Shown in pieces: positions 1,346 through 44,005 of a stretch of DNA of 64,000 nt (position 1 is its first letter; each line of letters opens with the position of its first letter). The notes under the pieces were generated by a model, which saw only the letters and a program-made list of their open reading frames with translations, had not been told where the DNA came from and did not search any database. Location of the stretch: contig NC_134847.1 in NCBI RefSeq assembly GCF_965363235.1, positions 61,412,439-61,476,438 of the forward strand, in the 5' to 3' direction. The position numbers and the translations under genes are program-made. This DNA is from Mytilus galloprovincialis. Taxonomy: Eukaryota; Mollusca; Bivalvia; Mytilida; Mytilidae.

Positions 1346-4300
1346 TCAGTTAGTTCGATCATTTTTCTGTATCTGTTTGACCATCCATCTAAAGCCATCA
1401 ACATATCCAATCTGTTGTACAACACTACTCATTACTAAGGTACATGGTCTGGTGCTGGATTTATCTTCTGTATTTACCTATAAATGGAGAATTTGTGAAC
1501 TTAGATTCAAGAAGATGTGGCATGAGTGCTAATGAGACAAATCTCCATCCAAGTCACAATTTGTCAAAAAAAAAACATTATAGGTCAAATTTATTTGTTT
1601 TACTTGACAGGATATAAATGAGAAAAAAGAAAAGTTTAAGAAAATATACTGTAATTGAGTATTAAGGTTAATGCTTTTCCTGCCCATCAACCAAATCGTC
1701 GAAAATTGGTACTCCACGAATATTAATAAGAATTCTAAGGTACGTCAATGAGAGTTCAAACAAAACTTTATGACCCCTTGGCTTTCTGTTTTATCATGCC
1801 TACTGTAATATCAGTTTTTCAAACTTACGTTTTCCGATAAGTACATGTTTATTCCAAGCTCTTGTATAAGTTGTTCTTTACCATAGCAACCATGTCTGTC
1901 TATTTTGTTACCAAGTATAAGGATTGGTACATCGGATACTATTTCATCTGTAAGAATACCCTGAATAAAAAGTTAACCTGATTATTATAATTAACTATTT
2001 TTTTTTTTTTTTTGCTTAAAAAATGACTTTTTCGCGTAAAATTATATCTTTTTATGGGGATTCAAACGCTGATAAAATATTATAAGACATTCAAAGTGTA
2101 TTTTCTATGTTCATACACTCACTTTTTATAATGAATATCCACAATTATTAATTAAAGCTATCTGTTGACTTGGTCTTACGTCGACTTGAACTTATGCAAT
2201 TCCTTTTTTGCTGCTTTTTTTTTCTGAAGTACGAGATTTTTCACATTTGCAAACAGAGCTTTATATACAAATAAGAAGATTTGGTATATAAGCAAAGAGA
2301 CAGCTCTCCATACAAGTCATAATGTGTGAAAAGGAAAACAGTATAGGTCAAAGTACGGTCTTCAACACGAATCCTTTGCTCATACCGAAGTTGTTCAAGC
2401 TACAATGGGTACTAATGAAACAGGGACCTTCACTGAGATAGCTGTATCAGTGGAGTAATTGTTAACAGTGTGCAATACTGTTGTTGAATAATAAGAAAAA
2501 CAATGGGCCCAGAAAATTATTTCAACAGAACAACTAACGGTCTAATCTATATAAAAAACGAGAAACGTAAAACAATTATTAACCACATCAACAAACGACA
2601 ATCACAACAGGTTCCCGACTTACTGCGTTATGTTTACTGGCCTCTACTGTAACAACAGTTTCTTAGGACCCTCCGTGCTATGTGAAAAGATATACACATT
2701 TTTCAGAAAAAGACAAGTTAAAGTGTTAGATTGTTAATTATTGTAAGCATTTCAGATCTTTGTAAACACTGGATTTTACGTGCTTATATTATCCATTTCA
2801 CTGACTTTTACGCTGGGCTTTACACGTGTTTCAGCATTACATGACTTACAGTTATTTCTTCTCTAGCCTCTGGTAGTCTTTCAATGTCACAACCATCAAC
2901 CATAAACACTATACCATCAACTGCTGGGAAATATGTCCTCCAAACTTTTCGTCGTGCTGGTAAAATAAATACCAAAATTTTATACAACTACCATTATAAG
3001 CAACTACACAATGTTGAACACTTACAAATCATTTTTTATTGAATGATTGCCCAGTAAAGCGATAGGAACAGAAAGCGCTTTTTATTCAACATGCTTTCTT
3101 CATTTGACATCTGAATTTCATACATCTTAAAATTGAGTATTCATTTTGGCAGATATGCTGGTTTACCTCTATCGTTTTTCTTCTTCCTTAAATCTTCAAC
3201 CCTTAAATACATAAAACCAATTGAAGTTTCAGATGCCTGTGGATATAAATATTTTTTTCAATGGTTTTATTTGACAATGATAGTGGTTTTACTGTGTTGT
3301 AATTACCTGATGCATGTCCTCCTAGATCGTACGCTTGACAAGTCACTTTACCCATCGTGAGCTCCTCTGACCCTGGTTTATAAATAAATTAAAAAACATA
3401 TATAATTTTTATTATATTGTCAATGCAAGAGGATTTCGATAGTCTAAACAAAGCAATGCTACATTCAGTAGCCTGTTATTGCTGGTTTTTGTTTGTTGCT
3501 GTATAGCATAGACACGATAAGATGTGGTATGAATGTCAATGAGACAAATCTCCATCCAAGTCACAATTTGTAAAAGTAAACCAGTATAGGTCAAAGTATG
3601 GTCTTCAACACGAAGCCTTGGCTCACATCAACAGCATTCACACATGTTTCGAACACAAATCAGGCCGTTAGTTTTTACCGTCTAAATTAATCTATATTTG
3701 TCATATCTGAACATTTGATAGAGTGTTTTGTGGTATGTATTTTGCTCATTGTTTAGGGTTGTATGCTGATCTAGATATTTGTGAACTTTTTTAATTGTAT
3801 TTAGTTTTATTAATGTTTAGTATGTTAACTTAACTGTTTTGCAGAATGTTTGTCCTGACATTTGAAATTGATTTTCATTGGCACTCATACCACATCTTCT
3901 TATTTCTATTTGTTTATCTACACAACCGTTTGATTATGTATTAAGACAGAAAAATATAGTTTACTTCAAAGCAACCTGCATGTGCTTGTAACAAATTTCA
4001 AAACTTATACATAACACAGGGTTACCAAAGTATCTGCCCTGAATCGTCCTTAGACTCGACAAGTAATAAATGAGTTATTGGGAACTAACCTACAAAACGA
4101 ATATTATGTTTTATAATCGTTTATACATTGAACCCTCGTTGTATATGAATATGTGTACGATTAACAGGTAGCATATTATTGAACGTTACAATATCCAATT
4201 TTATGTTGGCTTAACATCCTAAGCCGTACTGTGTACTAGTATATAAAAACAACTTACATGGTTGATTTGTTGGTGGATATTGCACAAGACGCCCATCTTT

Positions 4301-5511
4301 TATCTTCGATAGAAGAGTTGATTTTCCAGCGTTATCTAGTCCAATGATGAGCAATTTGCATTTCTTGTTCATGAAACCTACAACCGGAAACTTAATTAAT
4401 ATTGTATTTTGCGAACTTAGTTGAAAAGCCATTTTTCGTTTACTGTTATACTGTTGTATACCATCTATATAGTTTTCTTATGCACACTCATTCTACATCA
4501 ACTGTACAGTACTGTTTTTTTTTAAAGCTTGACAGACAGAACAGATAATCATAATGTTAATTAACGAACAAGCACATTGTTATGTATTTGTCAATGTAAA
4601 GTCTCTATTTGCCTTTGCGACAATGTTGACCTAACATTTGTGTTGGCTAGTCTGTTTGAATTCCTTTCTGTCTTATTAATCCTCAAGTATTTAAAAATTC
4701 TCGCACATCTTTAAGCCGCGTTCCTAATGAGAGCTACATTCAAATTTGTTGTTTTCATTAATTGCGTTAATGATACATGTATGTCGATGTAAATATTCTA
4801 TAAATCAAAGTTAAAATTTATTGAAAATGATACCAACGCTGTTAATTCAGACATATTATATAATTGCGATAGGTTTTTGCTTCATTAAAACTCTTAATAT
4901 ATTGATCATATTTTGAAATGTCATACATCAATCTGTTAATTATTAATCCTATTCAAAATTCACGCAATAATTTAATTGTAAAAAGTAAAATCACAAAAAT
5001 ACTGAACTCCGAGAAAAATGTAAACGGGTTCAAAAACGAAGCTTTCTATACACAATAAATAATCTAACACCCTCTCAACAGTTACCAAAAATATATCATG
5101 TATATGTTGTGTAAATACCCCCTTTTTCCTTCCTTTTTTCAGTATGCATAGTATTCAATATGCGATACATTTACGAACGCCAAATAAATGAAAAGTGTTA
5201 GCATGTGCTTTCATATAATAATCACCCAAAACCAGTCCCCTTTTTATGTACTGAATTGTACTGTGTGCCATTCTATTAATACAGCGAATGTTTCAACATA
5301 ACCGTTTTAAACGATTTGTCTTATGATGTTTTATTTTAAATTCAAATTGAGCTCATGTGTGTTCAAAAGTTTTATCAATAAAGACCAAATAGGATATTAT
5401 ATTAAAGGAATTATGTAATAACTTATGATATAAAAATATAACAATATAAAAATTAAAAATAAACCTACCGAAATACTGCAATATAGTTATAAACCAGTCA
5501 AACAAAAACAT
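1346..5511 (-). CDS. SAR1-like small GTPase, copy 1 (type I), six exons
   Basis: Predicted exons, 5' to 3' on the minus strand, are 5511-5469, 4377-4258, 3372-3307, 2956-2850, 1960-1829 and 1477-1346. They total 600 coding bases (199 residues plus TGA), and every intron is GT-AG. The protein starts [15 protein letters not shown], matching the amphipathic membrane-inserting N-terminus of SAR1. The P-loop GLDNAGKS is at residues 27-34, the switch I threonine at 51, switch II DLGGH at 70-74, NKID at 130-133, and the C-terminal GFRWM resembles the SAR1 end. SAR1 proteins are about 198 residues and recruit SEC23/24 to ER exit sites. That role here is inferred from family. Residue 55 is Trp, encoded across an intron, where SAR1 usually has Thr. 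Codon 80 is an extra Lys not seen in copy 3. A 5.35-kb transposon block begins about 140 bases upstream of the start codon and may have moved the promoter. All G motifs are intact, so it looks functional. Confidence 0.9.
1509..1596 (+). repeat. Dispersed repeat family R1, 5' fragment
   Basis: Begins near AAGAAGATGTGGCATGAGTG and continues with the family's CTCCATCCAAGTCACAATTT segment. It lies in intron 5 of SAR1-like copy 1. At least 14 copies of this family occur in the window on both strands. Confidence 0.7.
2268..2690 (+). repeat. Dispersed repeat family R1, long copy in intron 4 of copy 1
   Basis: A diverged, nearly full copy running from the AAGAAGATTTGGTAT start through the AAAACGAGAAACG segment to about the TTTCTTAGGACC end. 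The same intron of copy 3 holds the matching copy at about 31137-31480, so this insertion is older than the copy 1/copy 3 duplication. Confidence 0.7.
3519..3720 (+). repeat. Dispersed repeat family R1 copy in intron 2 of copy 1
   Basis: Matches the family from GATGTGGTATGAATG through CAACACGAAGCCTTGGC. A short oppositely oriented piece of the same family (CTCATACCACATCTTCTTAT) lies at about 3884-3903. Confidence 0.65.
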
Positions 5512-5652
5512 TTTGAAGATTTCTTTGCTTACATACAATTAATGATTTAGTTTATGTTCATATTCATTATAAATATACAATTTCTTGTTCTATTTTTAGA
5601 TATATCCGTCAGTCCAAACATGTAACGGTATCCACGGTAGCAATGATCTAGT

Positions 5653-6101
5653 GGGGTAAATTCAGTAAAAAATCTCCCATTGACTTTAATGCTAATCTAT
5701 GTATGGAATTAAATTTATACCTGATTTACCTTTAGAAATTGGAAACTTTCATATTACATTCATGAAAGTACAAATGTAGCCCTATCTTTTGCACTAATAA
5801 AAACATAGGGTCATGCGGCATTTTTGGGCATTCACATGGCCTTGTTTACAAACAATGAAGATTCGCACTGAATTCCTATACTGACCCCCATTACTTTTCA
5901 AACCTGTAGTAAAAAAAGTTAGTACATTCAGCATTTATTTTTTATTTATTTTCAACTCTAGTTTTGATCCATCTGCCAAAAAATATTTATTACAAACATT
6001 ATCTACCAATCAGAAGAGCATATGACTTCAGTGTTATACAGAAAGCTCTCCCCTAAATGGGCGGTCCCTGATGACGTATATTTATTTACTGAATTTACCC
6101 C
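5653..6101. mobile_element. Inverted-repeat element M1, empty copy (449 bases)
   Basis: Terminal inverted repeats read GGGGTAAATTCAGTAAA on the left and TTTACTGAATTTACCCC on the right, with TA directly after the right end. No coding capacity is seen. The same sequence, without interruption, forms both arms of the element at 7345-10921. TA flanks and short inverted ends fit a nonautonomous Tc1/mariner-like MITE, but no transposase is present to confirm the superfamily. Confidence 0.8.
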
Positions 6102-7344
6102 TATAAGGGACTTTTTTACTTCTTTTCCCACTTTTTTTGTAATAAACATGTAAGGAATCCAATTTTCAAGTTCCAGTTTCAATACAACATTCATAAATGC
6201 TGAGTTTGTAAAGATAGAGCAAAATTTATACTACAGCCCATACTGCGGCCAATGTATATTTGGTATATAAAGTTGCACATTGACTGTTTTTAAAAGAATG
6301 GTGTAAAATACTATGTTTTATAAATATGAATTGTTTTCTGTGTTTGCTTTGACCAGTATTGCAAGCACACCTAGAAACTAAAGACTTGGTGTACTCTTAG
6401 TTAAATTTTTCCTTATATGGAAGTTTTTGATTAAATACCCTGAAAAGAGCACACAAGGACTTTTTAAAGGCTTTTTAAAGCAGTTTGATACCAAATAAAA
6501 CAACAATTATGTTTCATTATACTAAATCTGTGTTTTAATTACTTGTAAATTTCACAAAATGTCATTGACAATCACTCTGCAGAAATTCCTGTTACCCCAA
6601 CATCAGGATGGATTCTTCGCCAAAACTAGACAGCCAAAACTGAAGTAGAAAAAAGTGCCAAATATGAATAAATAAGTCTAAATAGAACCAAACTTTGCAT
6701 TTGGAAAATTAAAGTAACAATTTAGAATATTTAAAAGCAATTATTTAACAAAAAAATCCAATTACAAACATTTCAACACTAGTTTCCTAGATGAAGGACA
6801 TGTAATCATGAAAAGTTGTCTAGTATAGTTTTTAAATAAAGAATCGCAATGCGTTATGTGAAAATAAATGAATATCTTCATGCGGTCAGATTATTTGAGT
6901 GTTAAAATACTAGAAAAGTGCTTATTTACCACTTGTTCTACAACTTAACATGGGGAACACAGCTAAAAAAAATCACTATGTCAAAGGGAGGTAGTCCATT
7001 TTTTCATATGATTTTATATATATTATGAGGAGAAATATGTGCAAAATGTGATGTAAATGGGGAGGATATTTGTGCCTTTCATTGATATCATAACTCTAAA
7101 GTGTCATTTCTATTGTTTCTTTCAATCTGCACACAAAAACTGATTTTTAACATATACCCCATGCTTCCTCTCACAGTACACTCAGTGCATCCTGAATAGC
7201 CGCGGCTAAGATAGAAATTTGTGTAAAAAACAACTTCAAATGGTTCCAAAATCCTTCCATTACATTAAAATTTACAGGAAATGAGTTTGTGGATTATTGT
7301 GTGGCCTTGGACAAGTACAGTGAAAGAGTGCATATTTTCCTATA
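6102..7344. other. 1.24-kb spacer between two M1 copies, no gene seen
   Basis: AT-rich sequence with no persuasive open frame. It is part of the 5.35-kb block flanked by a 15-base direct repeat and has no counterpart at the matching site upstream of copy 3, so it arrived with the block or between its elements. Confidence 0.5.
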
Positions 7345-10300
7345 GGGGTAAATTCAGTAAAAAATCTCCCATTGACTTTAATGCTAATCTATGTATGGAA
7401 TTAAATTTATACCTGATTTACCTTTAGAAATTGGAAACTTTCATATTACATTCATGAAAGTACAAATGTAGCCCTATCTTTTGCACTAATAAAAACATAG
7501 GGTCATGCGGCATTTTTGGGCATTCACATGGCCTTGTTTACAAACAATGAAGATTCGCACTGAATTCCTATACTGACCCCCATTACTTTTCAAACCTGTA
7601 GTAAAAAAAAATTAGTACATTCAGCATTTATTTTTTATTTTTTTTCAACTCTAGTTTTGATCCATCTGCCAAAAAATATTTATTACAAACATTATCTACC
7701 AATCAGAAGAGCATATGACTTCAGTGTTATGCTAGACAGTATATCAGATTCATCCATACCATCAACATCAGGATCAAGCATTAACTCACCATCTTTCAAC
7801 ACAACATCATTCAGTACAGATATACCGATCATGACATCATCGCCTAAACCAGCCAAAACGAAACCAACCCCTAAGAAACAACTAAGACTGCTGAACATCA
7901 ACTTCCAGAGTCTAAGAAAAAAGGGTAAACTTCTGGAGGCAATCATAGAGTCAACTGATCCGGACATAATAATAGGCACAGAAACATGGCTAGATCCAAA
8001 CATTAAATCAAGTGAAATTTTCCCTGATTACCTTAAATATGATATTGAGTGAAGGGATCGTCCCAAAGACCCACATGGGGGAGTTTTGATAGCAGCCAAA
8101 CAAACATTACAACTAGGGAACATAACAAAAAGCGGTGAGATAGAACTATTAACTGGTACAATCGCGTTAGAAGGGAAAAAGAAAATGCTTATTGGTGCAT
8201 TTTATCGCCCTCCAGATAAAACAGATGACACCTACCTTAATACAGTTAAAGAGGAAATAAGTACCATCAAATCAAAACATCAAAAAAACATCTTCTTGAT
8301 TGGAGGTGACTTCAACCTACCAGATATAAATTGGCAAGAACAGACCATCACACATAGACAGTACCCACAAGAACCAGTCAAGCTTTTTTAGACACCGTAG
8401 CTGATAATGGTTTAGAACAAATCGTAGATTTCCCAACACGCAAAGAAAACACCTTGGATTTAATACTTACCTCTCATCCATCATTCAAACTAAGATGTAA
8501 ACCATTACCATCAATAGGAAACAGCGACCATGACATTGTCTTACTTGATATAGCATGTAAACCTTTAAAACCCAAACCAGTTAAAAGAAAGATATACCTG
8601 TGGAAAAAATCAGATATATATAAGATAAAGGAAGACCTCGAAACATTCAAGACATCTTTTAAAAACACCTGCAACAGAACTGTAGAATCCATGTGGCAAA
8701 GCTTCAAATCAGAAATTCAAAAAACCATTGAGAAGCGAGTACCAACAAAAATGACTCAAGGTAGACACACCCACCCATGGATGAACACAGCAATAAGACG
8801 CAAGATCAACCAAAAACAAAAAGCTCACAAGAAAGCTAGGAAAACCAAAAAGAAAAGAGACCAAGACAGATACAAGAGACTACGACAAGAAGTACAATGG
8901 GAAATACGACAAGCCAATAAGAAATACATGGAAGAAGTCAGCTCCAACTACAAGGACAACTCCAAGAAATTCTGGTCCTATATTAAAAGCAAAGGTCAGG
9001 AATGGACAGGAGTAGCACCATTGAAGAACAAAATGGGATTCCTCCAAAGCGACAACAAAAGCAAAGCTAATATTCTTAACGACCAATTCCAGTCCGTATC
9101 TACAAAAGAGAACCTGAACAACTTCCCAAATAAAGGGAAAAGTCCATATACCACCATGGCTGACATACAAATCAATGTAAAAGGAGTTCATAAATTATTG
9201 AAGAACCTGAAACCACATAAGGCTACTGGACCAGATGCTATACCATCCTGTATACTAAAGACAGCAGCAGACCAACTTGCTCCAATTCTTACAGAACTGT
9301 ACCAAGCATCCCTCAACACCGGAGAAGTCCCTCAAGACTGGAAAGATGCAAATGTAGTCCCACTCTTCAAAAAGGATGAAAGACACTTAGCATCAAACTA
9401 CAGGCCTGTTTCACTTACCTCCATTACATGCAAAGTCCTAGAACACATTGTACACAGCAGCGTAATGGACCATTTCGACAAATACAAAATTCTCACAAAT
9501 GCACAGCATGGATTCCGCAAACGACGATCTTGCGAATCCCAACTCATCATCACCATTCATGATATTGCATCGAAATTAAAAGGTAACAGCCAGGTAGATA
9601 TCATACTACTAGATTTTGCTAAAGCGTTTGATAAAGTGCCACACCATCGCCTACTACATAAACTTGAGTACTACGGAGTAAATCCTAAAGCAAACAGGTG
9701 GATAAGATCATTCCTACAAAACAGAATGCAAAGCGTTATTCTAGAAGGAGCTGTCTCTGAACAAGTACCAGTACTCTCTGGTGTTCCTCAAGGAACAGTC
9801 CTTGGACCCCTACTGTTCCTGGCCTACATAAACGACATGCCAGAAACAGCAACATCATCAGAGACCAAACTTTTTGCTGACGACAGCCTCCTCTATCAAA
9901 CCATCAGTAACCAAGCAGAAAGTGACCTACTACAGAAAGATCTCACATCATTAGAGGATTGGGAAGATAAGTGGCAAATGAGCTTCAATGCAAAAAAATG
10001 CATTGTAATTAGAATACAACCCAAGAACCGTCCTGTAATACCAACTAATTACAAATTACACGGACACACACTGGACACTGTTGAAGCTAGTAAATACCTA
10101 GGAGTTACTATCAGCAATAATCTAACCTGAGACAGACACATCGACAACATAGTGGGAAAAGGAAACAAAACACTAGGCTTCATACGACGTAACCTAAAAG
10201 ATTGCACTAAACCGGTCAAAGCAGCAGCATATTCAACAATAGTAAGACCTTCAGTTGAGTATGCTAGCACAGTATGGGACCCTACGAAACAGGCTAAAAT

Positions 10301-10921
10301 AAAAGCAATCGAGCAGGTACAGAAAAGAGCAGCTAGATTTGTTAACAACAACTACACAGACCGCACACCTGGCTGTGTAACAAAAATGGTAACATCTTTA
10401 AAATGGGAAAGCCTCGAAGACCGCAGGAAACAAAATAGGCTATGCATGCTATTCAAAATCCAACATGATCTGATAGACATAGATAGGCATTAATATCTAA
10501 CACCAAACGATAGCCGGACCAGAGGTAAAAACCGCTTCTTCCAAGAAAGGGCCACAACAGACGCCTTCGGACAATCATTTTTTCCAAGGACCATTAGAGA
10601 CTGGAACCAACTGCCAACATCCGCAACATCAGCTGACACAGTTGATGGATTCAGAGCTGCCCTGAAGGCATGCTCTGCTAAAATTTAGACAGTAACATCC
10701 TGTACATAGTTTTAATTGTATATATATAGAGAACGTTTTATCCTGCAAATAGCCAAGAGAAAACTTTCTGTGTTGTCCGACATTGCGTTAGTTTTCGCGG
10801 GACCTCATACATTCAAGATTTGAATTCGGTTCCTTACCTGGAAGAAGAAGAAGAAGAAGAGAAAGCTCTCCCCTAAATGGGCGGTCCCTGATGACGTATA
10901 TTTATTTACTGAATTTACCCC
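7345..10921. mobile_element. Inverted-repeat element M1, copy interrupted by a LINE
   Basis: Outer ends match the M1 copy at 5653-6101 almost exactly and are flanked by TA on both sides. M1 sequence runs 7345-7730 and resumes at 10861-10921. Removing the LINE between them gives a 447-base element. The near identity of the two M1 copies suggests they are young or recently homogenised. Confidence 0.85.
7731..10860 (+). mobile_element. Broken non-LTR retrotransposon (LINE) with endonuclease and reverse transcriptase
   Basis: The left part encodes an APE-type endonuclease (LRLLNINFQSL, GTETWLDP, GAFYRPP, GGDFNLPDINW). The long frame 8454-10130 is a reverse transcriptase with YRPVSLTS, AFDKVPHHRLL, GVPQGTVLGPLLF and the catalytic FADDSLLYQ, followed by the C-terminal AAYSTIVRPSVEYASTVWDP region and a final stop at 10686-10688. 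The left end lacks any ORF1 and is probably truncated. In-frame stops at 8050-8052, 10128-10130 and 10491-10493 and a frameshift near 8375-8392 show it is dead. The tail is a GAA repeat (10841-10860). The motifs place it in the broad CR1/L2/jockey-type group; the exact clade needs a tree. It sits inside an M1 element. Confidence 0.9.
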
Positions 10922-11002
10922 TAGTCTCGGTTACCCAGAGGCTTGAATTTTACAAATCTAACTATATTAATGCATAATAATGCGTCTGGGTGATCGAGAC
11001 TA
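10922..11002. mobile_element. Tiny inverted-repeat element, 81 bases
   Basis: Arms GTCTCGGTTACCCAGA (10924-10939) and TCTGGGTGATCGAGAC (10985-11000) pair with two mismatches, and TA lies at both outer ends. It abuts the M1 element directly and forms the right edge of the 5.35-kb inserted block. It could be a minimal MITE or the folded terminus of a larger element. Confidence 0.55.
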
Positions 11003-11110
11003 GCAATGATCTAGTATATGTATAATACACGTAAAATACACGACGACAAATCGTTGCTTTTAAATTTCTCAATAGGTATTTTCTTTCAATAGTAGATATG
11101 AACTATAAGG
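11001..11110. promoter_or_regulatory. Displaced upstream region of copy 1
   Basis: After the second copy of the 15-base direct repeat, the sequence (ATATGTATAATACACG and on through CGACGACAAATCGTTGC) matches DNA about 130-200 bases upstream of the copy 3 start codon (34163-34230). It was therefore adjacent to copy 1 before the block inserted. A promoter role is inferred only from position and conservation. Confidence 0.35.
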
Positions 11111-13592: not shown

Positions 13593-16500
13593 TCAATTTT
13601 TTTTATTGATTTGTGTTGCCATCCATTTCAAACCATCACCATATCCTGTTTGGTGTAAAAGACTACTCATTACTAAGGTACATGGTCTGATGCTGAATTC
13701 GTCCTCTGTATTTTCCTTTAAAAAAAAATTGTTACGGCCATTTACTGAACAGGTAAGATTGAGACACAGCTAATTGTAAGAGTAAATATACTTGAATTAG
13801 TTGAAACATTTTTGTTGTACTGTTGGTATCTAACGTTTACAAGTACCATAATGCAAGAGAACGATTTCTAAGAAAGGTTATGTTACAAATAACTATTTAC
13901 TTCATTACACAATGTACTACAGTGTATGTAAAGTGCGGATCCTAAAATATCATTTTTACTGTATATGCCATAAATGTCTAATGTAGAATGATAAATAAAC
14001 AGACGAACTTTTTTTTACTTTCGAAGAAAATGAAGAAAATTAGTTAAAATGTATATGTTCAGAAATACATAATACTAATAAAACAAAGTAAGAGATGCGA
14101 GCGGGGTTTTATCGCGCCTAAAGCCATCCAGCTTTGAAATATATACCAAAATAGGTGAATATTTATGACATTTCACGAACAGATCGTGCAGGTGCTTTAT
14201 AACTAACAGGTAAGATGTTGTTGCAGTACAAAATATACATTTTAATACAATTAATAAAGTTGTATAACGTAGAATATGTTTTGTCATTCAGTTTCTTCAT
14301 ATTTAACTAAATTCCACTATGATGATTTCGTAATGCTAGTCATGTTTACTGTCGAATAATGATACTATTCTTTCATTTTTACTGTGGAGCGAATCATTAG
14401 TACTGTATATGCGGTGCATTTTCACTGTATAATTTTTTATTTATTTTTTTATCTATTACAGCTCATTTCTTTAAGCATGTAGAGCAAGACTTTAGTTGAC
14501 TTGCTTGTTTTTCTTTTATTGGATAATCGTTATGATAACACCCAATTTAATTCAAATATTAAAAATACAGGTTAAACTATCATATGCCTAATCATATTGT
14601 TTAAAAATGTCAATCTTATTTACAAAGTTTGTATAAACCATTAAACAAACAAAGCAAGCAAGCCAACCAAAGTTTTGCTTTGCATGCATTATGAAATTAG
14701 CTGTAAGGCCTTAATTTAGCCGACTTGCTCAAACAATAGATAAAGTAAGAGAAAGATTTGATAAAATTTAACTTACGGAGGAAAGTTTGGTTTTAAAACA
14801 CTCTAATAAATTCAATAGAAATAACATTTATTTCAAATGTATTCCATTTAGTTTCTTATAAAGCGTATAGGGATCTTTATCCTTATTTTTTTTTATCCAT
14901 TTCCATGACACTTCACCACTAATTACGTACATCTTGATATAGATTGAATCTTTGTTTTCCCGTTTAAAAGGTTTTACACTGGCGCCATTTATAACTTGCT
15001 GTTCGGTGTGAGCCAAGACTCCATGTTGAAGACCGTATGTTTACGTATAATGGTCTACTTTTATAAATTGTGACTCGGATGGAGAGTTGTCTCATTGTCA
15101 CATACGACATCTATATATGGCTCAAAAACGAAACGAGACGGGATAAAAAGGTATAAAAAAATCCACACTACATTTTTAATATATGTATAATGGGCTTAAT
15201 ATGATTCAGAATAGAGTAAAATAGTGGGTCGCATTTTGGTATAAGCGTGACGCCGGATTGCCGATTTTTTGCAAGCGTGACAGGTGAAAGTCAAATGATT
15301 GTGTCGTGAAAAACGAGAAATGAAGTCTAGCGGGACACAGGAATCAGCCAAAACAATAAGCGGAATACGGGAACTGCCAAAACAGTAAGCGGGATCCGGG
15401 ATCAGAACCCCCCCCCCCCCCCCCCCCCCAATGAGACCCCCAGAATAAGATATTTGTGTATATCAATCCTATTGTTACAGCCATGCCTTCAATAACAAAT
15501 GTATCCGATGCATGCATTTTTTTTATATTTTTGGTCCCTTTTTCAATTTTGAGGGGTCCAAATTTAAAGACAAAAGTCCTTTAATATAGATATTTGGGAT
15601 TCGTTGACATGCTGAATCTAACTGTGTATCTAGTTTGGGGATTTTTTGTCTAGTTGCTGAAACAGCCCACATAGAGTTCCAAAGGGTCTAAAATCAACAA
15701 AAATTAATTGTAGCAATCATTTCGTGTACAATAACCCAAATGTGTATGGTTTTACCTCTGCGGTAGTATCCATTCGCGGAAATGAATTTTTCATTTTGAG
15801 AATCGCTTTTGTTACAAGTTTGAAAAGCTATATATTTGATGAAGAATGAATGAGGAGTTTGTATTTCAATTTGAAAATACATGTATCATAAATCCTAAAG
15901 TCATCAACTAAGTTTTTTCGTTTGTTGCAAGTGCATTTATCACATAATTCTACAATAAAAATTCCTCGCATCTTTGAAAATTCTACATTAATAATGACTG
16001 CACTAACAGTGATAATTCATCGCATCTATAGCTAAAATGGATCGCTTTCAATAATCGATATGCTATATTATGATGCTTTTATAACACTTATTTGAACTTT
16101 AATGCTATGTTTGTATATTATAAAGACATATCACAATGAAAATATGTTAAAACTTATCTTCAAATCACTTAACTTGATATTTTCAAAACATAAACAAATA
16201 CAGTTTTCCCATGATCCTTTATTCTACAATAGACATACCCGCATATAACAGTAAAAATGAACTAGCTGGATTCGCACTTTATATACACTGGTACTATGCC
16301 AAAGTAAAATTAGGTATGCAGAGTGATCAGACTCATAACGTATAGAGGTTTGTTTTGTCCGTTTGTTTTAGGTTTTTGACCTAAATTTGTAATAAGTCAT
16401 TTTTGGGGTCCTTTCTTGCTTGCTATTCGGTGTGACTCAAGGCTAAGTGTTAATGACCGTACTTTGACCTATAATGATTTGCTTTTACAAATTGTGACTT

Positions 16501-21000: not shown

Positions 21001-21031
<31 letters not shown>

Positions 21032-24354: not shown

Positions 24355-24383
24355 TTTGATGTTCCATGTTATACTAAATACAT

Positions 24384-25486: not shown

Positions 25487-25649
25487 CTCATCATTTAAAA
25501 CATTTTAACATTTGTCAGATTTCCTCTGTCTGTAGTGGTTTTCAAGATAATGGACAAACGATATATTTCACCCCTATTCTCTATTTTTTGCCATGACGGT
25601 TATGTTTGTTGCCAAGCGGGGTCATCGGACACAGTATTTCAACTATATA

Positions 25650-29131: not shown

Positions 29132-29231
29132 TCATTTAGTTCGATAGTTGTCTTGTATATGTTTGGCCATCCGTCTTAAGCCATCACCATATCCAATATG
29201 TTGAACAACATTATTAAGGTACATGGTCTGA
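29132..29231 (-). pseudogene. Relic second copy of the last exon of SAR1-like copy 3
   Basis: It lies directly downstream of the copy 3 stop codon with no gap. Read on the minus strand it repeats the second part of exon 6 (GYGDGLRRMAKHIQDNYRTK, then TGA) but lacks the AGTAGT hexamer, which leaves a two-residue deletion. It would form part of the 3' untranslated region of copy 3. It appears to be a tandem partial exon duplication and is not translated from the main frame. Confidence 0.8.
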
Positions 29232-32200
29232 TCAGTTAGTTCGATCATTTTCCTGTATATGTTTGGCCATCCATCTAAAGCCATCACCATATCCAATCTG
29301 TTGTACAACACTACTCATTACTAAGGTACATGGTCTGGTGGTGCTGGATTTATCTTCTGTATTTACCTGAATGGAGAATTTGCGAATTTATTTGCTTCAC
29401 TAGACAGAACTTAGATGAGACAAGGATAAGTTTTAAAAAATGTATGCTGTAGTTGAGTATTTTTAAAGTAAACTATATTTGGCATAACTTTTACTCATAT
29501 GGCAAAATCAAAGGTACTTTATTCAAATGATTTGCACTATGTGACTTTGTCCCTTTTGATCAAATTACTTCCCTTAGCTAAAGATTAAAAATATAATGTA
29601 TTTTAGTTTTACGGATAATCCAGTCCTTTTCCGTCGTGTGTCTAAAACTAATGTATCTTCAAAACTCCCTTTGGTGGATATTTATAAAAATTCTGTGTAA
29701 TTCTAAGGGAAAATGCTTCAAATTTGACTTTTTAAGAAATAGGAAGATTGAAATCATCATATTTTTACAAGAATTTGGCCGAAAACTTAAGAAAGCATGT
29801 AAGTTAAAAGTTATTTTACTTTAAAAATTAAACCTACAAGGTGTTTCCTTAGATGCGAACAAATCATGAACAATATCTTCTTGCATATGTATTTCTGTTC
29901 TGAATCTTGCTATTTTACGATTTTCCGTCATTTTATTTGATCTTATATAGCAATTATACTATGGTTACGCTTACGATTTTTAAACTAAAAAGGCCGAAAG
30001 ATTTCAGAGTAGGCAATGTTCATTTGTACACGGACAGAAGCCTAAAACATGTACAATTCACCTATATGCGAACAAATTGTTCATTCGACATAAGTATTGG
30101 CATATTGGCATTTTTATCTAAGGGGCTTATATAATCCTATTGTAATGACTGCCATCATGAAAAGGCTAAATTGCCGCTATGCAAATTAGCAAATTACCCC
30201 AAATTTTGCCATATGAAGAATTTTTGATCCTCACGCTCTTCAACTTTGTGCTTTATTTGACCTTTTAAACTTTTTTTTAATCGAGCGTCACTGATGAGTC
30301 ATTTGTAGACGGAACGCATGTCTGGCGCAAATATAAAATTTTAATCCTAATTTCTATGCTTGGTCCGTTTCTGTGTGTGTTACATTGTAGTGTTGTGTCG
30401 TTGTTCTCCTCTTATATTTAATACGTTTTCCTCAGTTTTAGTTTGTTACCCCGATTTTGTTTTTTGTCCATGGATTTATGAGTTTGACCAGCGGTATACT
30501 ACTGTTGCCTTTATTTCTATGATGGGTCTTTTTAATGCTTTCCCTGCCCATCCACCAAATCCTCGAAAATTGGCACCCCACGAATATAAATAAGAAACCT
30601 AATGTACGTCAATGACAGATCACAAAAAAACGTGAAGACACCTATTTTTTTCTGTCTGTTTTATCATCCTTACTGTTATATCAAACTCAAACTTACGTTT
30701 TCTGATAAGTACATATTTATTCCAAGCTCTTGGATAAGTTGTTCTTTACCATAGCAACCACGTTTGTCTATTTTATTACCAAGTATAAGGATCGGTACAT
30801 CGGACACCATTTCATCTGTTAGAATACCCTGAATAAAAAGTTAACTTGATTATCATGATTATAATAATTAACTATTTTTCTACATTAATTATAAATGTTC
30901 TCGTTAAATCATTCCTGTTTTGGCGGATTCAAACGCTCATAAAATATCATAAAACATTTAAAATGTATTTCCAATGTTCATACACTCATTATTTATAATG
31001 AATATCCACAATTACTAACTAAATCTATCAGTTGACTCGGCCTAACGTCGACTGAAAATCATGCAATTTCCTCCGATTTTTTCTCTCTTCTTTTAATGTA
31101 CGAGTTTTGGAAAATCGGCAAACAGAGTTTTATAAAGAAATAAGAAGATTTAGTACGAGAGCCAAGAGATAGCTCTCCATCCAAGTCATAACGTGTAAAA
31201 AGTAAACGATTATATGTCAAAGTACGGTCTTCAACACAGAGCCTCTTCTCACATCGAACAGCAAGGTATAAGGGGTCCAGAAAAAACCGGTGTAAAACAA
31301 TTTAAACTGAAAAAAAAAACAACGGTCTTATCTATAGGAAAAACGAGAAACGTGAAACACTAATCATTTACATCAGCATTCGACAACCACTTAACAACAG
31401 GTTCTCGTCTTCCTGTGTTATGTCTAATGGCCTCTACTGTAACAACAGTTTCTTAGGACCCTCTATGCTATGTGAAAAGATACAAATTCTTTTTGATATG
31501 TTTCAGAAAAAGTCAGATCAAGTTTAAAATGTTAGATTGTTAATTATTGTAAGCATTTTAGTTCTTTATTAACACGGGATTGTATGTGGTAATATTATTC
31601 ATCTCACTGATTTTTTTTTCGCTGGGTTTTTAATGTGTTTCAGCATTAGATAACTTACAGTTATTTCTGCTCTAGCCTCAGGAAGTCTTTCAATGTCACA
31701 ACCGTCAACTATAAACACTATACCATCAACTGCTGGAAAATATGTCCTCCAAACTCGTCGTGCTGTTTAAATAAATACCACAATTATATAAGACTATTAT
31801 TAGCAACTACTCAATGTTGAACATTTAAAAAGTATTATAATTGCCCAGTATAGCGATAGAAAGAGAAAACGCTTTTTTATTAAACAGGCTTTTTTATTTG
31901 ACATCTGATTCATATATATCTGAAATTTGAGTATTCATTTTGGCAACTCTGGTGATTTAGCTCTATCGTTTTCTTTCTTCTTCCTTAAACCTTCAATCCT
32001 TAAATACATAAACCAATTCTAGATTCAGATGCCTGTAAATATATGTATGTTTTCAATGGTTTTTATTTGATAATGATAATGGTTTTACTGTGTTGTAATT
32101 ACCTGATGCATGTCCTCCTAAATCGTATGCTTGGAAAGTCACTTTACCCACCATAAGCTCTTCTGACCCTATTATAAATAAATTGAAAAACATATATCAT

Positions 32201-34024
32201 GCAAGAAGATTAAGACGGTCTAATCGAAGCAATGTTATATTTTAGAGATGCATATCTTAAGATATAAGTCTGTAGTTAGTGGCTATTGTTTGTGGCTGTA
32301 TGTTTTGAACATAGGTCGAACCGTTAGTTTTTATCGTTTGAATGGTTAGAACTATATTTGCACTATCTGATATAAAAAAAAATAGTAAGGTGATGTGGTA
32401 TGATTGCCAATGAGACTCATTTCCACCAAAGTTCAAATAAGTTGATCTTAGAATACTAGACAACAGTAAGGCCTTCAACAATGGCGAAAACCCATACCGT
32501 ATGGTCGACTGAACCTTTTACAGCATGCTTTGTGATATTGGTTTTGCTCATTTTTTAATTTCGTATGCTGATCTACAGTTACTTCTGCATCATTGGTATA
32601 TCCTATTAATTATTATTAAAGTTTATCTTGAATAAGTCTTTTCTGATGTTTTTTTAAATATGTTGTGTTAAAATCATTTTAAATTAGTTGCATTTAATTT
32701 TATTGATATTTAGTATGTTAACTTGGACTGTATTGATGAATGTTTGGCCTGACATTTGACTTTTTATATCTACATAACCGTATGTGTTCGTGTTAAAACA
32801 GAAAAATAAAGTACACAAGGTTACCAAAGTATCTACCCTGAGTCTTCCTTAGACTCGACAGGTAACCAATGAAAGCTTTGGAATCACACTTTAAGTAAAT
32901 GAATACAACATTATTTTTCATAACCGTTTTTTCCAATGAACTCTCAGTGTATATGAAAGTTGTACAGCTAACAGGTAGCATTGTCCTGAACTTTACAATA
33001 TCGAATTTTATGTTTGGTGTAATTACACAAAAACATAACAAAATGACAGAATCATCCTAAGCAATACTGTGTATATATATTCAACTTACATGGTTGATTT
33101 GTCGGTGGATGTTGCACAAGACGCCCATCTTTTATCTTCGATAGAAGGGTTGATTTTCCTGCATTATCTAGTCCTATGATGAGCAATTTGCATTTCTTGT
33201 TCATGAAACCTATAATCGGAAACGTAATTAATATTGTATTCTGCGAACTCAAGTGAAATATATTTTCGTCTACTGTTATATGGTTGGATAATATCTATAT
33301 CAATTCAGTTTGTCATATTTTTCTTATTGTGATTCATGAATTATCTAAAACTCACATTCATTGAATTTGCATTTTAACAAATCCTGAAATAGCATGTTTT
33401 ATAATCTGACTTGTTCGTTAGTTCACTATCAATCCCATTGAAAATTCACGCCACAATTTGAATTTAAAGTAATCAAACGGTGTTGTCTTTACAAAATAAA
33501 CAATTAATACATCAACTTAACAGTTTTTAAAAGTATACGGAGTAACCCCCCCCCCCTCCCCCATCTCTTCTTATGTGTTCATTATATATATATTGAAGTA
33601 TAAAATCCATTTTACGCTAAATTAATCATTAAAGTTTTAGCATGTGTTTTCATATAATAATCACAAAAAACTAGTTCCCCTTTTTATGTACTGCGTGCTT
33701 TTCTTTTTTCACAGCTAATCTTTTAGTATACTAGTAACTGTTTTACACGATTTGTCTTATGACGTTAACTTTGTATGCATATTTTTTTATTTTCTTTTAA
33801 TATGCATACTAAAAATTCACCCGTACATTACAGTGAACGATAGCAATAAGTCAGCTCATTTATATTCCAAAGTTTGGATTAATTAAGACCAAATTTGCTA
33901 TTATATTAGATGAATAATTTATGATAACTTATAGTATTGTGATACACAAATGTTAATATTTAAAAATTATAATAAACCTACCGAAATACTGCAATACAGT
34001 TATAAACCAGTCAAACAAAAACAT
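29232..34024 (-). CDS. SAR1-like small GTPase, copy 3 (type I), six exons
   Basis: Predicted exons, 5' to 3', are 34024-33982, 33209-33090, 32168-32103, 31762-31659, 30828-30697 and 29366-29232, giving 600 coding bases (199 residues) with GT-AG introns. The protein is about nine-tenths identical to copy 1 by eye. It has the N-terminus [16 protein letters not shown]-loop GLDNAGKS (27-34), PPT switch I, Trp55, DLGGH (70-74), NKID (129-132) and the end [16 protein letters not shown]. It matches SAR1 in length, GTPase motifs and order, so a COPII-type role at ER exit sites is likely but unproven. Introns 4 and 5 carry the same repeats as copy 1. The 5' flank is type I for about 300 bases and then switches to the type II flank near 34330. 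This copy best preserves the ancestral type I gene. Confidence 0.92.
30160..30350 (+). repeat. Hammerhead-bearing repeat in intron 5 of copy 3
   Basis: The ribozyme-like part is 30285-30328. The box CTGATGA is intact, but the second core box reads GGAA where GAAA is required, so self-cleavage is unlikely. The upstream family segment includes CTCTTCAACTTTGTGCTTTA. Confidence 0.65.
30355..30512 (+). repeat. Dispersed repeat family R3
   Basis: Matches 27530-27690 closely, from TTGGTCCGTTTCTGTGTG to CTGTTGCCTTTATTT. Confidence 0.65.
31137..31480 (+). repeat. Dispersed repeat family R1 in intron 4 of copy 3
   Basis: It is at the same intron position as the copy at 2268-2690 in SAR1-like copy 1, which dates it before that duplication. 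Confidence 0.7.
32388..32510 (+). repeat. Dispersed repeat family R1, 5' part
   Basis: GATGTGGTATGATTGCCAAT then TTCAACAATGGCGAAAACCC, in intron 2 of copy 3 just beyond exon 3. Copy 1 has a different R1 insertion in the same intron. Confidence 0.65.
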
Positions 34025-34325
34025 TATTAAGATTTCTTTGCTTACACACAATTAATGGTTAAGTTAATTTTTGTATTCTTTATATATATATACTATTTCT
34101 TGTTCTATTTTTAGATGTCCGTCATTTTAAACATGTAACGGTATCCACGCTGGCAATGATCAATATGTATAATACACGTCTATTACACGACGACAAATCG
34201 TTGCTTTTAAATTTCACAATAGGTATATTTATTTTGCTATTAACAAAATCCCTAGTATCTTTGATAAATATAGACAGGGAAACAATTCAATAAACTAAAA
34301 TCACCTTCAATTATTTTTTTTTTGT
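34025..34325 (-). promoter_or_regulatory. Likely 5' flank of SAR1-like copy 3 (uninterrupted)
   Basis: Conserved with the split upstream region of copy 1 (5512-5652 plus 11001-11110). It includes TGTAACGGTATCCACG, CGACGACAAATCGTTGC and TATAATACACG. It shows the site empty of the 5.35-kb block, at about 34153-34164. Core promoter elements cannot be assigned with confidence. Confidence 0.4.
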
Positions 34326-38560: not shown

Positions 38561-38633
38561 ATTTACTAAGTAAGTCCCAGGTAACATGCTATTTATGCAG
38601 TAGATGAACTATTCCGCCACTGAGGCACTGCTA

Positions 38634-41600
38634 TCAAGTCGTGTTTGAATTCTTATTTATACGGTCTTTTTCTTTGATTTGTGTTGACATCCATTTCAAA
38701 CCATCACCATATCCAATCTGTTGTACAACACTACTCATTATTAAGGTACATGGTCTTTTACTGGATTTGTCTTCTGTATTTACCTTTAAATGAAGAATTT
38801 TTACAGCGATTTACTTATCAGAATATGAATGAGACAACGTTAACTATAAGTGAATCATCTCAAATTGGTTGAAATATTTTTATCACTAATCACTCTCCTA
38901 ACATATTTGTCACAATTTTCTCGTGTTTTTTTTTTTTTTTTTTTTTTTTTGTCCGTTTGTTTTATGCTTTTGTTTTAATTTATTTTAGGACTAAAGTATC
39001 TAAATGATATTCTTTTCGGTAAATTGATAGCCTGAATTATAACGACAAATGTTCCAAATTTGTATTTTTAAACAAGCCTATACATAACTATCAAAACGGC
39101 AAGGGTTAACTTTACCTAAAATATATACATTTTTTGTCAGTTACATACTTTTCGAATTTGAAAGAGTCGAAAATGCGCGTTAAATTAGCTGACACGTTCA
39201 CTTTAAAGTGTTTGTAACAAGTTTAATAAAATTTTCACATCTATTTGTTTAACTTATAGTTATTTGTATCATAGTTGATTGTTTTATGCTTGTTTGATAT
39301 TCATTTTGTAGATCAGTATAAAAAAGAAGATGTGGTATGATTGCCAATGAGACCACTATCCACAAAAGACCAAAATGACACAGCCATTAACAACTATGGG
39401 TCACCGTACGGCCTTCAACAATGAGCAAAGCCCATACCGCATAGTCAGCTATAAAAGGCCCCGATAAGACAATGTAAAAAAATTCAAACGAGAAAACTAA
39501 CAGCCTTATTTATATAAAAAAAAAAACGAAAAACAAATATGTAACACAAAAACAAACGACAACCACTGAATTACAGGCTCCTGACTTGGGACAGGCACAT
39601 ACATAATGTGGCGGGGTTAAACATGTTGGCGGGATCCCAACCCTCCCCTAACCTGGGACAGGGGTATAGGAGTACAAAATAAGAACAAACTATAAAAATC
39701 AGTTGAAAAAGGCTTAACTCATCAGATGGACAAAAATACTAACATATTTGATATTTGTTAAAATAATAAGAAAGGAATGAATAGATAAAATGTTGAATTT
39801 ACTTTCTTGTTTTATTTATATTTGTGTGTGTGCTTGTTTGATTGAAAAGTTCCTGTTTTCTCACTTATGTTATCATTTTATCTTTGAACATGAAACTTTT
39901 AAAATATTATGAAAATAATTAAAATTGTATTGCCTTTCTTTTCGAAATACTTAAAATGTGTATGTGAGCCTATATTTTCTTTGAGACGTTTCTGCTATCA
40001 AACCAGGTTCAATCCACCATTTTCTACATACGAAAATGACTGTACAAAGTCAGGAATATGACAGTTGTTAATCATTGTTTGATGTGTTTAAGCTTTTGAT
40101 TTTGCCATTTGATTATAGACTTTCCTTTTTGAATTTTCCTAGGAGTTCATTATTTTTGTGATTTTACTTCTTTCTTTATTTGTGTCTGTTATTATGATTT
40201 GCTTGCTCAAAATATTTAATCGTGCATACAGAAAACATCGGTGCTTATATTTTCATATTAATGATAGTTATCATAACGTTTTCATAAATGCGATCATCTT
40301 CATAATTTTAATTTCCTAGTTACATGAACCTACAGTAATAGATTGACGTTGATATATTCCAAGCTCCTTGATAAGCTGTTCTTTACCATAGCAACCTGTT
40401 TTGTCTACTTTGTTACCAAGAACAAGAACCGGTACATCATACACATCTTCATCTGTTAGGAGACTCTGAATAAAATGAAAGCTTGAAATTTTACATTAGT
40501 CTTAATTTATTTCAAAAGTAATGTGTCTTCCCATGCATTGGTCCAATTTTTGTTGTTGTGATTTATCATCTCTTCAAAAGAATTGTTTGGCGTTCAAGAT
40601 CACTGAAATGAAATGTATGTCTCTTTAGTCATACTATAAATTGACAGTATCACAAGAAAAAGAAGGCAGTAATAAGGTATTGATGGGTATGGTTTGATTG
40701 AAATTAGCTGTTATAAAATATTTTATTTTTCATTGTTTGGTGACAGTCGAGTTTCTGACTTTGTTTGTAAGCACTGTGTCTAAATTCAAATATAATGAGT
40801 GTATTACCACCTTGTTGTTCCATGTGCTTGAAGAAGTATTCCGTTACTTACTTTTGATGTTTACCAAGTCACTATTAATCTGGAACTTATATTTCATGCA
40901 TATAAACTAGTATTTATTTACTTACATTTAATTCTTGTCTAGCCTCTGGTAGTGAGTGTGAGTTTGACGCATCAACAACGAACACTATACCTTCAACTGC
41001 TGTTATGTATCTTCTCCAGAAACGTAGTGCTGTAATAAGTCTTAGATCATAACAATTGATTGTTCTTCGATAGGTAGAATTTTCATTGAATTGTTCGAAA
41101 CATTTAAGCATCAAATTTTTGATTCAACGACATGAAAATGATTTGCGATTCCTCGAGTGACTGAAATGTATATTTCATAACCGTAAAAATTAATTGCGGT
41201 TTTGTCATTCTGTTTTCCTATGCTTTTTCTTTTATAGCGGATTTTTTTTTTTTTTTTTTTTGTGAACCGAGCTGGAGTCCGTTCACATTGTGAGACATAG
41301 ATTACGAATATCCAGTATTTCATTAGGGTAATAATATGTTTAAAAAAAAGGTTTATAACATCTATTTGATAATCAACTTGAAATATAAAACAGAAAACAA
41401 AACCCAATTAATGGCATTAAAAAAGGCTGATGTTTACACCACAGCTACAAAATTACAAAATAAAATAACATAACTTTTATGGTTTAACATGCAGTTTGTT
41501 CTACTTGGCTGGAAAATCACATCACAGATGACCACCCAATTTTTGTTCTCGATTTTGTCATCACCGAGTGTGTACTTCCCTATTGAGCACAATATCTGAT

Positions 41601-44005
41601 TTCTATTCCGAGGCAAGTGAAACCAACCTCAGTTATTGTTGTTTATTGTTTTTAATTTTTGTGCTCAGTTTTTACTTTTTTAAGTAGTGTTTTGTAAAAA
41701 AAGTTCATTCGATCTCGACATATTAGTTCTTTTTTAGTATAGCCTTGTAATCATTCGTCTCTTAACCGCATGTGTGGTCACGTTGTAATGGTCTCGCTTC
41801 GAGAGCCTTAACTCGATGGTTCAAATTCCGGCCGGATCAGTCCAAAGATTTGAAACATTTGCTGTTGATCCGTCTATTTTCTCTCTTTTTAAGATTTTTA
41901 ATTTTCATTTGTATATTTTATTTGACAGATTTTTGCTACGCAATGATAATTACCTAATATGTGACCTCCTATATCATACCCTGTGAATGTCACGTTATCA
42001 ATGGTAAACTCTTCATACCCTACAAAAATAAATTTAATTAATAAAATACAAGTTTGATCTGACTCTTGTGTTATTTGTTGCTGTATGTCTGTTGTCCAAT
42101 GATATGGGTATTGGTGCTGATGAAGTATGTTGTACTGTCAAATACTTTTTTATTCATATTATCCTTTTTATGTTATAAATAATAAGTATATTCATCATGT
42201 AGAGCCAATTTCCAACTGGAGAACCCTAATCTAAAACAAAACACACAGTCTTTCTAATCACAATTAACTTCTTTACACTGTTGAACATGTGTTCCTCTTC
42301 ATTTCAGTTAAAGTCCGTTGCGATCCTTTTTGATGACAGTTCCTGAATGTATTTTGAGTCATACAAACGTCACCATGAACATTAAATCATAAAAAAACTT
42401 AATGAAAATAAAAAACAATCGGTCCGTGGATTACAGATTGAAATCCATTTTATCAATGTGTATGTCTGTTTTATAACATTACAATCACTGATACAGATTA
42501 ATAGAGAAAGCGGCAAACTTCTTATATATGTACAACTTACAGGGATAATTTGTTGGTGAATGTTGAACTAGACGACCATACTTAAGCCGACTCAGGAGAG
42601 TAGATTTTCCTGAGTCGTGTAGTCCGAGGATAAGCAAGTTGCATTTCCTGTTGATAAAACCTGCAATGGTAAACGCAAATAGTTGTGATTGTGAATAATA
42701 AAGTGTAAGGCGATGCATCATTAATTGTTTCATGGTTGAATTATTATAGTTTGCTGGGTTTGCCAGATCATTTATTTTCCGAGTTCCAATACCTTGCAAA
42801 AATGGCGGTGAACAATGTGCACTTTATATCTTATCAAACAAAATAAAAGAAGAATGCGTCCATATTGGACAAATATTGTTAATATGCAAGAGTTGATATG
42901 TATATTACTAGTAGGTAATTTTACATTTAAAAATGGACATACCATAAGAACGATGAAATTGATGCAACTCAAGTTCGAACTTGATGGTGAAAATTAGCAC
43001 ATTAACTTAATGCACAGAGAAGTAAGAGTGTGGAAAGGGTAAACTAGCGATTTTTTTCCATTTACAAAGGGACAAAAATCGAGGACAGGGAGAGTGACGC
43101 CATACAAATCGAACTTGACTTGTGTTTTGTGGTAATGAGCATTATGTCCCAGTTTTATGTATTATGTCGGTATTGTGTATAAAAGAGGGACGAAAGATAC
43201 CAAAGGGACAGTCAAACTCATAAATCTAAAACAAACTGACAACGCCATGGCTAAAAATGAAAAAGACAAACAAACAACAGCACACACTACACAACATAGA
43301 AAACTAAAGAATAAACAACACGAACTCCACCAAAAAACTAGGGGTGATCTCAGGTGCTCCGGAAGGGTAATCAGATCCTGCTCCACATGCGGCACCCGTC
43401 GTGTTGCTTATGCGATAACAAATCCGGTAAATAGTCTTATTCGTTAGGTCACATTCATGAAAGGGAAGGGAATTGTAGTTTCGACTTAAGGAACATATCC
43501 GATATCATTTGTGAAACGGTTATTCCATAACGGTCAACCAACTCGTGATGGCGTCCGTAAAATTTACGAAGGGATGATTTCAACTTCACCATTTGGAACT
43601 CTTGGTTTAATAGCTTCCTTGTGAGCAGCAACCCTCTATCAAGAAAATCATGATAGGAAATACAAGCACGGGAATATCGTATCAATTGGGAGATATATAC
43701 CCCGTATGCAGGTGCTGCTGGAATGTTGCTACTTAGAAATGGAAAGTTCACAATTGGAAAGCTGAAATCATCTCTTTTGTATAAGCTTCATAAAAAGTTG
43801 GTTACGGAAAATTGAAGTTAGGGAACGGAAACCAATTTCCTCACGTATGGTTGAACAAACGGAGCAGTGTAAACCATAATACAATAATAATATAAAATCA
43901 AAACAAAAACTAATAATGAAAGGCCATAATATAATTAAGAAAAATTCCAAATTAATACATACCAAAATACTGCAGTATACGTGTAACCCAATCAGACAAA
44001 ATCAT
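38634..44005 (-). CDS. SAR1-like small GTPase, copy 4 (type II), six exons
   Basis: Predicted exons, 5' to 3', are 44005-43963, 42660-42541, 42019-41954, 41029-40926, 40465-40334 and 38783-38634, giving 615 coding bases (204 residues), all introns GT-AG. The start is MILSDWVTRILQYFG. The P-loop is GLHDSGKS (27-34), so the DNA of the canonical GLDNAGKT becomes HDS. Switch II is DIGGH (70-74), NKVD is at 129-132, and the protein ends GLKWMSTQIKEKDRINKNSNTT, a few residues longer than the others. It is about two-thirds identical to copy 2 by eye. The N-terminal helix has lost two aromatic residues that help SAR1 enter membranes, so membrane binding could be weaker. It keeps all GTPase motifs and looks functional. 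Intron 3 carries the SINE-like repeat shared with copy 2. Confidence 0.9.
39317..39745 (+). repeat. Dispersed repeat family R1, long copy (second subtype)
   Basis: From AAGAAGATGTGGTATGATTG through CGTACGGCCTTCAACAATGA and CCTGACTTGGGACAGGCACA to about CAGTTGAAAAAGGC. It is the most complete copy of this subtype, and lies in intron 5 of copy 4. Confidence 0.75.
39995..40180 (+). repeat. Dispersed repeat family R4
   Basis: AACCAGGTTCAATCCACCAT through TTTGATTTTGCCATTTGATT. A second copy lies at about 48465-48620. Confidence 0.6.
41495..41845 (+). repeat. tRNA-derived SINE-like repeat in intron 3 of copy 4
   Basis: The tRNA-like head is about 41773-41840, with a B-box-like GGTTCAAATTCC. It is the partner of 18650-19045 in copy 2. 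The head is better preserved here, but the acceptor and D stems do not pair well enough for a tRNA gene. Confidence 0.55.
43180..43751 (-). mobile_element. Retroelement reverse-transcriptase fragment with 3' tail (R2)
   Basis: The frame 43751-43455 reads NFPFLSSNIPAAPAYGVYIS followed by an SLRKFYGRHHELVDRYG stretch, the same protein family as at 35540-36130. The noncoding tail follows to about 43180. It is a 5'-truncated fragment in intron 1 of copy 4, treated as a fossil of uncertain retroelement class. Confidence 0.6.

Follow-up and report, generated by a model that had tools for sequence, protein, structure and literature searches.

SAR1 (SAR1A and SAR1B in mammals, Sar1p in yeast) is the strongly conserved small GTPase of coat protein complex II (COPII), a switch that initiates export from the endoplasmic reticulum. 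Human SAR1A and SAR1B differ at 20 of 198 residues, and the available excerpts of PMC7307210 point to two clusters of differences, residues 106-117 and 139-146, which set GTP exchange and SEC23/SEC31 binding, the second of them contacting SEC31. Two further groups come close: SarB, a divergent SAR1-like paralogue found alongside a true SAR1 (PMC8358228, excerpts), and the atypical ARLs and pseudo-GTPases, ARF-family proteins with altered switch residues (PMC12722892, excerpts). Here we describe four tandem SAR1-like genes, copies A, B, C and D, in a 64,000-nucleotide stretch of the genome of the mussel Mytilus galloprovincialis (C10:61412439-61476438; hereafter the window). With SAR1 the array shares its best sequence matches, a short N-terminus, the P-loop, the switch I Thr, the catalytic His after G3, NKxD and an exon plan. 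It differs from SAR1 in the end of switch I, in Walker B, in a GCYGKEQ loop, in longer C-termini, in the altered G3 of copy B and in its four tandem copies. Like the vertebrate pair, the array consists of extra SAR1 paralogues with differences in both clusters, but its copies depart from the SAR1 of their own genome at half of the positions or more. On balance we favour the reading that these paralogues of SAR1 have neofunctionalised, with a change in effector coupling.

Gene models and relationship to SAR1

The array exon sets were located in the genome assembly (1.385 Gb, 331 contigs) with a human SAR1A probe, and exon 1 of each copy was located separately through its MxLxDWxxxxLQYFG peptide. 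Residue numbers are those of human SAR1A. Four sets were obtained, all on the minus strand and head to tail in the order D-C-B-A along that strand, each with six coding exons and an intact open reading frame (Table 1). All introns were GT-AG and their phases were 1,1,1,0,0 in all four copies. An earlier note on this DNA had described four head-to-tail copies with one six-exon structure and common phases, which is borne out by the joined gene models; its outer coordinates were exact, 1346 being the end of the last exon of A and 44005 the start codon of D.

The separate canonical SAR1 that the earlier note had suggested looking for is present and intact on contig C9 (L029:1104-9944; 193 residues), and the objection that the genome has no extra canonical gene falls away. 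Its exons measure 43/120/66/104/132/117 bases with the phases of the array. The array has the same sizes for exons 1-5 (43/120/66/104/132), barring copies A and B, and the exceptions within exons 2-5 (exon 2 of B +15, exon 3 of B -3 and exon 4 of A +3 bases) are all multiples of three. Intron position and phase agree at all five introns. Because the exon plan equals that of the canonical gene, the copies appear to be duplicates made at the DNA level with their introns kept. The C-termini extend beyond the canonical protein by 6 residues in A and C, 3 in B and 12 in D, as the note had seen in outline.

The PDB search was run with C and D, while A and B were tied to them through the tree. Copy C (188-residue query) matched SAR1b and SAR1a with 176 bits (E 6e-51), the best chain not named SAR1 scoring 88 (a G-alpha construct) and the best Arf 82. 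For copy D, SAR1 came first with 162 bits (E 1e-46) and the best non-SAR1 chain had 85. The Pfam Arf family scored 155 bits in A, 115 in B, 164 in C and 145 in D (E 4e-33 or better in all four), and 204 in canonical SAR1. Since SAR1 tops the PDB search for C and D and Pfam Arf matches every copy, chance is excluded, on these scores, as the source of the match to SAR1. Marks of Arf and Arl proteins were replaced throughout: residue 2 is F or I instead of Gly (which is myristoylated in Arfs), and His stands at the place of the catalytic Gln of switch II in all four. We are nearly certain that the four copies are genuine genes derived from SAR1.

Pairwise identity was 92.9% for A-C, 73.2% for B-D, 63-65% between A or C and B or D, and 41-50% between the array and canonical SAR1. 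The canonical protein is itself 70.5% identical to human SAR1A. The array thus falls into two types that alternate in gene order, D beta, C alpha, B beta and A alpha. A SAR1/ARF tree was built with five SAR1s (yeast, human A and B, fly, mussel) and an ARF1 outgroup. It recovered one array clade (support 96.9/95) with A+C (93.3/91) and B+D (99.7/99) inside it, but the place of the array among animal SAR1s is not fixed by five reference SAR1s. In the best tree with ARF1 the array fell outside the other SAR1 sequences (77.3/68), and the approximately unbiased (AU) test disfavoured the pairing of array and mussel SAR1 (p 0.032), the other four placements tested not being rejected. Such a position would suit an ancient, SarB-like paralogue retained in molluscs rather than a younger duplicate of animal SAR1. 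Without ARF1, however, the AU test rejected none of the five placements at 5% under three models (array with mussel SAR1, p 0.11-0.30), as long-branch attraction predicts; under two of the models, placing the array with fly SAR1 was nevertheless excluded by bootstrap proportions from resampled log-likelihoods (bp-RELL) and by expected likelihood weights (c-ELW). Moreover, the array has all five introns and phases of the mussel gene and a Walker B Tyr in four of four copies, whereas for SarB the excerpts of PMC8358228 describe some intron positions found in SarB alone and, as a rule, a Trp. A SarB-like origin is therefore very doubtful.

The copies were found at one locus only, in agreement with the single tandem array of the earlier note. 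The genome was searched twice with array proteins, and every first-look candidate (55 and 70) was scored; no further array copy turned up, the matches being the array, the SAR1 locus on C9 and distant places (45% identity or less) that were also in the Arf-family match list. An extra array copy was also absent from the 10-kb stretches inspected, eight in all, of which three adjoin the window and five lie on C9. Downstream of the canonical gene, at a distance of about 34 kb, is a decayed SAR1 duplicate (C9:55242084-55246214), in which the exon-4 stretch is out of frame and the exon-5 stretch truncated. In the available excerpts of PMC10182130 the human disease deletion p.Ser117_Lys160del covers 44 codons. 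This length is the size of exon 5 in the mussel SAR1 genes. The deletion is presumably an exon skip.

Residue changes in the switch regions and the GTP-binding site

Ninety-nine positions were invariant in the five reference SAR1s, of which 63 are kept in A, 50 in B, 64 in C and 54 in D. At thirty of these positions every copy departs from the invariant residue, and at 17 of the thirty the replacement is the same in each. Because so many array-wide changes took the same residue, the common replacements point, by this comparison, to an ancestral remodelling that became fixed, rather than to decay at scattered sites. All four copies retained the P-loop GxxxxGK[ST], the Mg-binding Thr of switch I (PPT/SPT/TPT), the catalytic His and NKxD. 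The N-terminus reads M(F/I)L(F/S)DW(F/V)xxxLQYFG in each, without Gly2, and was judged amphipathic by eye.

Two changes common to the array lie in the switch I/interswitch region. T60 is replaced by Trp in A, C and D and by Cys in B, and F74 by Tyr in all four. The motif HPTSEEL at the end of switch I, invariant in the five reference SAR1s, has become [QY]P[WC][SY]EE[LF], and no copy retains either this motif or the Phe before the Walker B Asp that is typical of SAR1 (PMC8358228, excerpts). Neither feature is known to be indispensable in a SAR1. The codon of residue 60 is split by intron 2, as A/CA in the canonical gene, T/GG in A, C and D, and T/GT in B (the slash marking the intron). The Trp that the earlier note had placed at residue 55 was thus found in three of the four copies; B has Cys, at its own residue 60 owing to two small inserts, from the same split codon. 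Loss of the Mg-binding Thr through this Trp was ruled out, as T56 is kept and T60 replaced (counted on the human sequence), and so were alternative splice acceptors avoiding the Trp in A and C, which yield a stop codon (by eye). In the alignment T60 corresponds to Asn52 of Arf1 and F74 to Trp66. The excerpts of PMC3012027 describe a bond between Arf1 Asn52 and the Walker B Asp, and the packing of the next residue on Trp66, contacts that the interswitch toggle disrupts in the GDP form. An interswitch rebuilt with aromatics (W60, Y74) could also mark a separate animal GTPase subfamily whose membrane-bound, SAR1-like switch recruits an effector other than SEC23/24, for a non-COPII coat or ER-export (endoplasmic reticulum) branch in mussels; we hold this to be quite unlikely.

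The GTP-adjacent loop at 139-146 reads xGCYGKEQ in all four copies, with positions 141, 143 and 144 changed throughout, and 107, 110 or 115 are changed in some copies. The remaining differences set the copies apart. GxxxxGKS, DLGGH, NKID and the Thr of switch I are all intact in A and C, and in A one Lys is inserted after R84. The G3 motif with the catalytic His is DxGGH in A, C and D and EVGAH in B. Besides D75E and G78A in this motif, B carries D34H, T60C, inserts of 3 and 2 residues and a deletion of one residue after the catalytic His. Copy D has the P-loop GLHDSGKS, with D34H, N35D and A36S; B and D are the two copies in which GLH P-loops had been noted. These motifs suggest that A and C are competent GTPases and that B is impaired.

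The substitutions in the nucleotide-binding motifs of B (D75E, G78A, D34H) and D (D34H, N35D, A36S) are of the kind expected if the array encoded non-catalytic modulators, which would bind membrane and COPII parts, cycle nucleotide poorly and compete with canonical SAR1. Several ARLs are atypical and pseudoenzymes exist among small GTPases, as the excerpts of PMC12722892 describe. Unlike these proteins, A and C have the full set of nucleotide motifs and group with SAR1 by sequence, and for the array as a whole the modulator explanation appears rather unlikely.

Selective constraint, flanking sequence and repeats

Selection was examined with a purpose-written codon model (191 codons, fixed tree), a coarser second model and pairwise dN/dS by three methods, of which YN00 left 5 of the 10 pairs without a value; against canonical SAR1, synonymous change was saturated. 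Pairwise dN/dS was 0.16-0.18 for A-C and 0.38-0.51 for B-D. The tips of A and C had an omega of 0.136 (omega=1 rejected, p 3e-8) and the internal array branches 0.21 (against 1, p 7e-9). The exons of A and C were 88-98% identical, their introns 57-83% identical and of different length. Because of the low omega at these tips and the greater likeness of exons than introns, A and C are clearly under selective constraint. Simulations that placed the observed number of substitutions between two copies at random left the frames free of stops in 2-3% of the B-D trials and in 0.3-0.4% of those for A-B and for C-D. In-frame alignment gaps were dropped as a sign of constraint, since a protein-guided alignment makes gaps multiples of three by construction. 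The same comparison bears on the assembly: with 93% of residues common to A and C, uncollapsed haplotypes could have been stacked as a tandem. A dS of 0.17-0.19 for A-C, 0.26-0.33 for B-D and at least 0.76 across types, together with the divergent introns of A and C, makes such an artefact extremely improbable.

The flanks of the copies are related in a complex way. The 5' flank of B is nearer to that of C (88%) than to that of D (about 80%), and for this reason sequence was probably exchanged between array copies. Dispersed repeats make up 25067-24760 of the B flank and a short segment near 25307-25225, while the rest of the flank matched only the array (40 of 4,216 first-look candidates scored). 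The repeat in the inner part of the flank (24760-25067) recurs at many places in the genome, among them C9 near 80.955 Mb, where it forms tandem runs. Several related pieces connect the 3' flank of C with that of A, and at about 25,490 the C flank passes from A-like sequence to sequence like the 5' flank of C. The insertion between A and B contains a reverse transcriptase frame (8358-10130, + strand; RVT_1, E 6e-34); it was assigned to the non-LTR (long terminal repeat) type by eye, no LTR search being made. Its insertion site stands once in C, near 34150-34161.

Table 1. Coordinates of the array genes and associated features (positions in the window)
Feature	Position	Strand	Details
Copy A (alpha type)	1346..5511	-	six exons 5511-5469, 4377-4258, 3372-3307, 2956-2850, 1960-1829, 1477-1346; 199 aa
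Retrotransposon insertion	5638..11015	+	insert 5653-11000 (~5.35 kb); 15-base direct repeat 5638-5652 and 11001-11015
Copy B (beta type)	13593..24354	-	six exons 24354-24312, 23477-23343, 19659-19597, 17711-17608, 16961-16830, 13715-13593; 199 aa
5' flank of copy B	24383..25490	-	88% identical to 5' flank of C, 35419-34339
Remnant of duplicated 3' part of exon 6, directly behind copy C	29138..29232	-	29227-29138 matches the end of C at 67% aa identity
Copy C (alpha type)	29232..34024	-	six exons 34024-33982, 33209-33090, 32168-32103, 31762-31659, 30828-30697, 29366-29232; 199 aa
Copy D (beta type)	38634..44005	-	six exons 44005-43963, 42660-42541, 42019-41954, 41029-40926, 40465-40334, 38783-38634; 204 aa

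Intron 3 of copy B contains a 161-base tandem repeat (window 18003-18556, 3.4 copies), and a tandem repeat array on a TTATAACAAGTTAGCTAAGTCG-like unit occupies 57142-57867. Elsewhere in the genome, nine P-loop-region Arf-family matches lie within 55 kb at C3:41527400-41582101 (eight on the minus and one on the plus strand), seemingly another, larger ARF-family tandem array. The myticin antimicrobial peptide family (Pfam) had 17 matches in the genome, with clusters at C10:51838130-51883736 and C1:94607997-94641584, and none in 14 control genomes, ten of which are prokaryotes; this is in keeping with a Mytilus-type mussel.

Proposed history and function

We propose that an early duplicate of canonical SAR1 diverged strongly and then duplicated into an alpha and a beta type. 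The alpha/beta pair probably doubled afterwards to give beta-alpha-beta-alpha (D-C-B-A); the doubling of a two-gene unit is suggested by the alternation of the types in gene order. The array proteins would still insert their N-terminal amphipathic helix into the ER membrane, and A and C would bind and hydrolyse GTP. Nucleotide cycling or the coupling to SEC23/SEC31 may be altered by the GCYGKEQ loop, by F74Y and by T60W, which adjoins the Walker B strand. The copies would then work as versions of the COPII switch for certain tissues or cargoes, much as mammalian SAR1B does for lipoproteins. Drift towards a pseudo-GTPase or towards loss may be under way in B and perhaps in D. Judged from the sequences, neofunctionalisation with altered effector coupling is the somewhat probable best explanation overall, and for a role of the copies as COPII variants we see about an even chance.

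Several observations weigh against this reading. The tip of D had an omega of 0.69, not different from 1 (p 0.56), and that of B 0.31 in the main model (p 0.026) and 0.47 in the coarser one (p 0.21); B and D are relaxed and may be losing function. For A-C the simulated frames stayed open by chance in 19-20% of trials, which gives their intact frames little weight. The retrotransposon lies some 130 bases upstream of the A start codon, and A may for that reason have lost its promoter. The flank similarities, as far as sequence comparison goes, agree only in part with a doubled pair, and the tree, built on few reference sequences, gives no date for the duplication. The relaxed tips, together with the altered G3 of B, the exon-6 remnant behind C and the pseudogene on C9, by which this genome is seen to make such copies, fit decaying duplicates, SAR1 pseudogenes in progress with frames open by chance. 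The strong constraint on the A and C tips and on the internal branches already makes this unlikely for A and C; GT-AG introns everywhere, length changes in multiples of three in exons 2-5 and array-wide replacements in common also speak against it, and as an account of the array we consider decay unlikely. Neofunctionalised SAR1 paralogues thus remain the reading that we favour.

The array is new in detail, while duplication and divergence of a small GTPase are already of a known kind. No paper among the literature matches listed described a mussel or bivalve SAR1 array, which does not exclude that one exists. Many invertebrates have a single SAR1 paralogue according to the excerpts of PMC7307210, and intact paralogues at 41-50% identity, two of which are clearly under selection, with changes fixed near the interswitch and in the loop that faces SEC31, constitute a natural experiment. 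It bears on the question of how coat choice and GTP timing depend on individual SAR1 residues. Mussels secrete heavily, producing byssus and shell matrix, and a specialised export switch could be sought in their glands.

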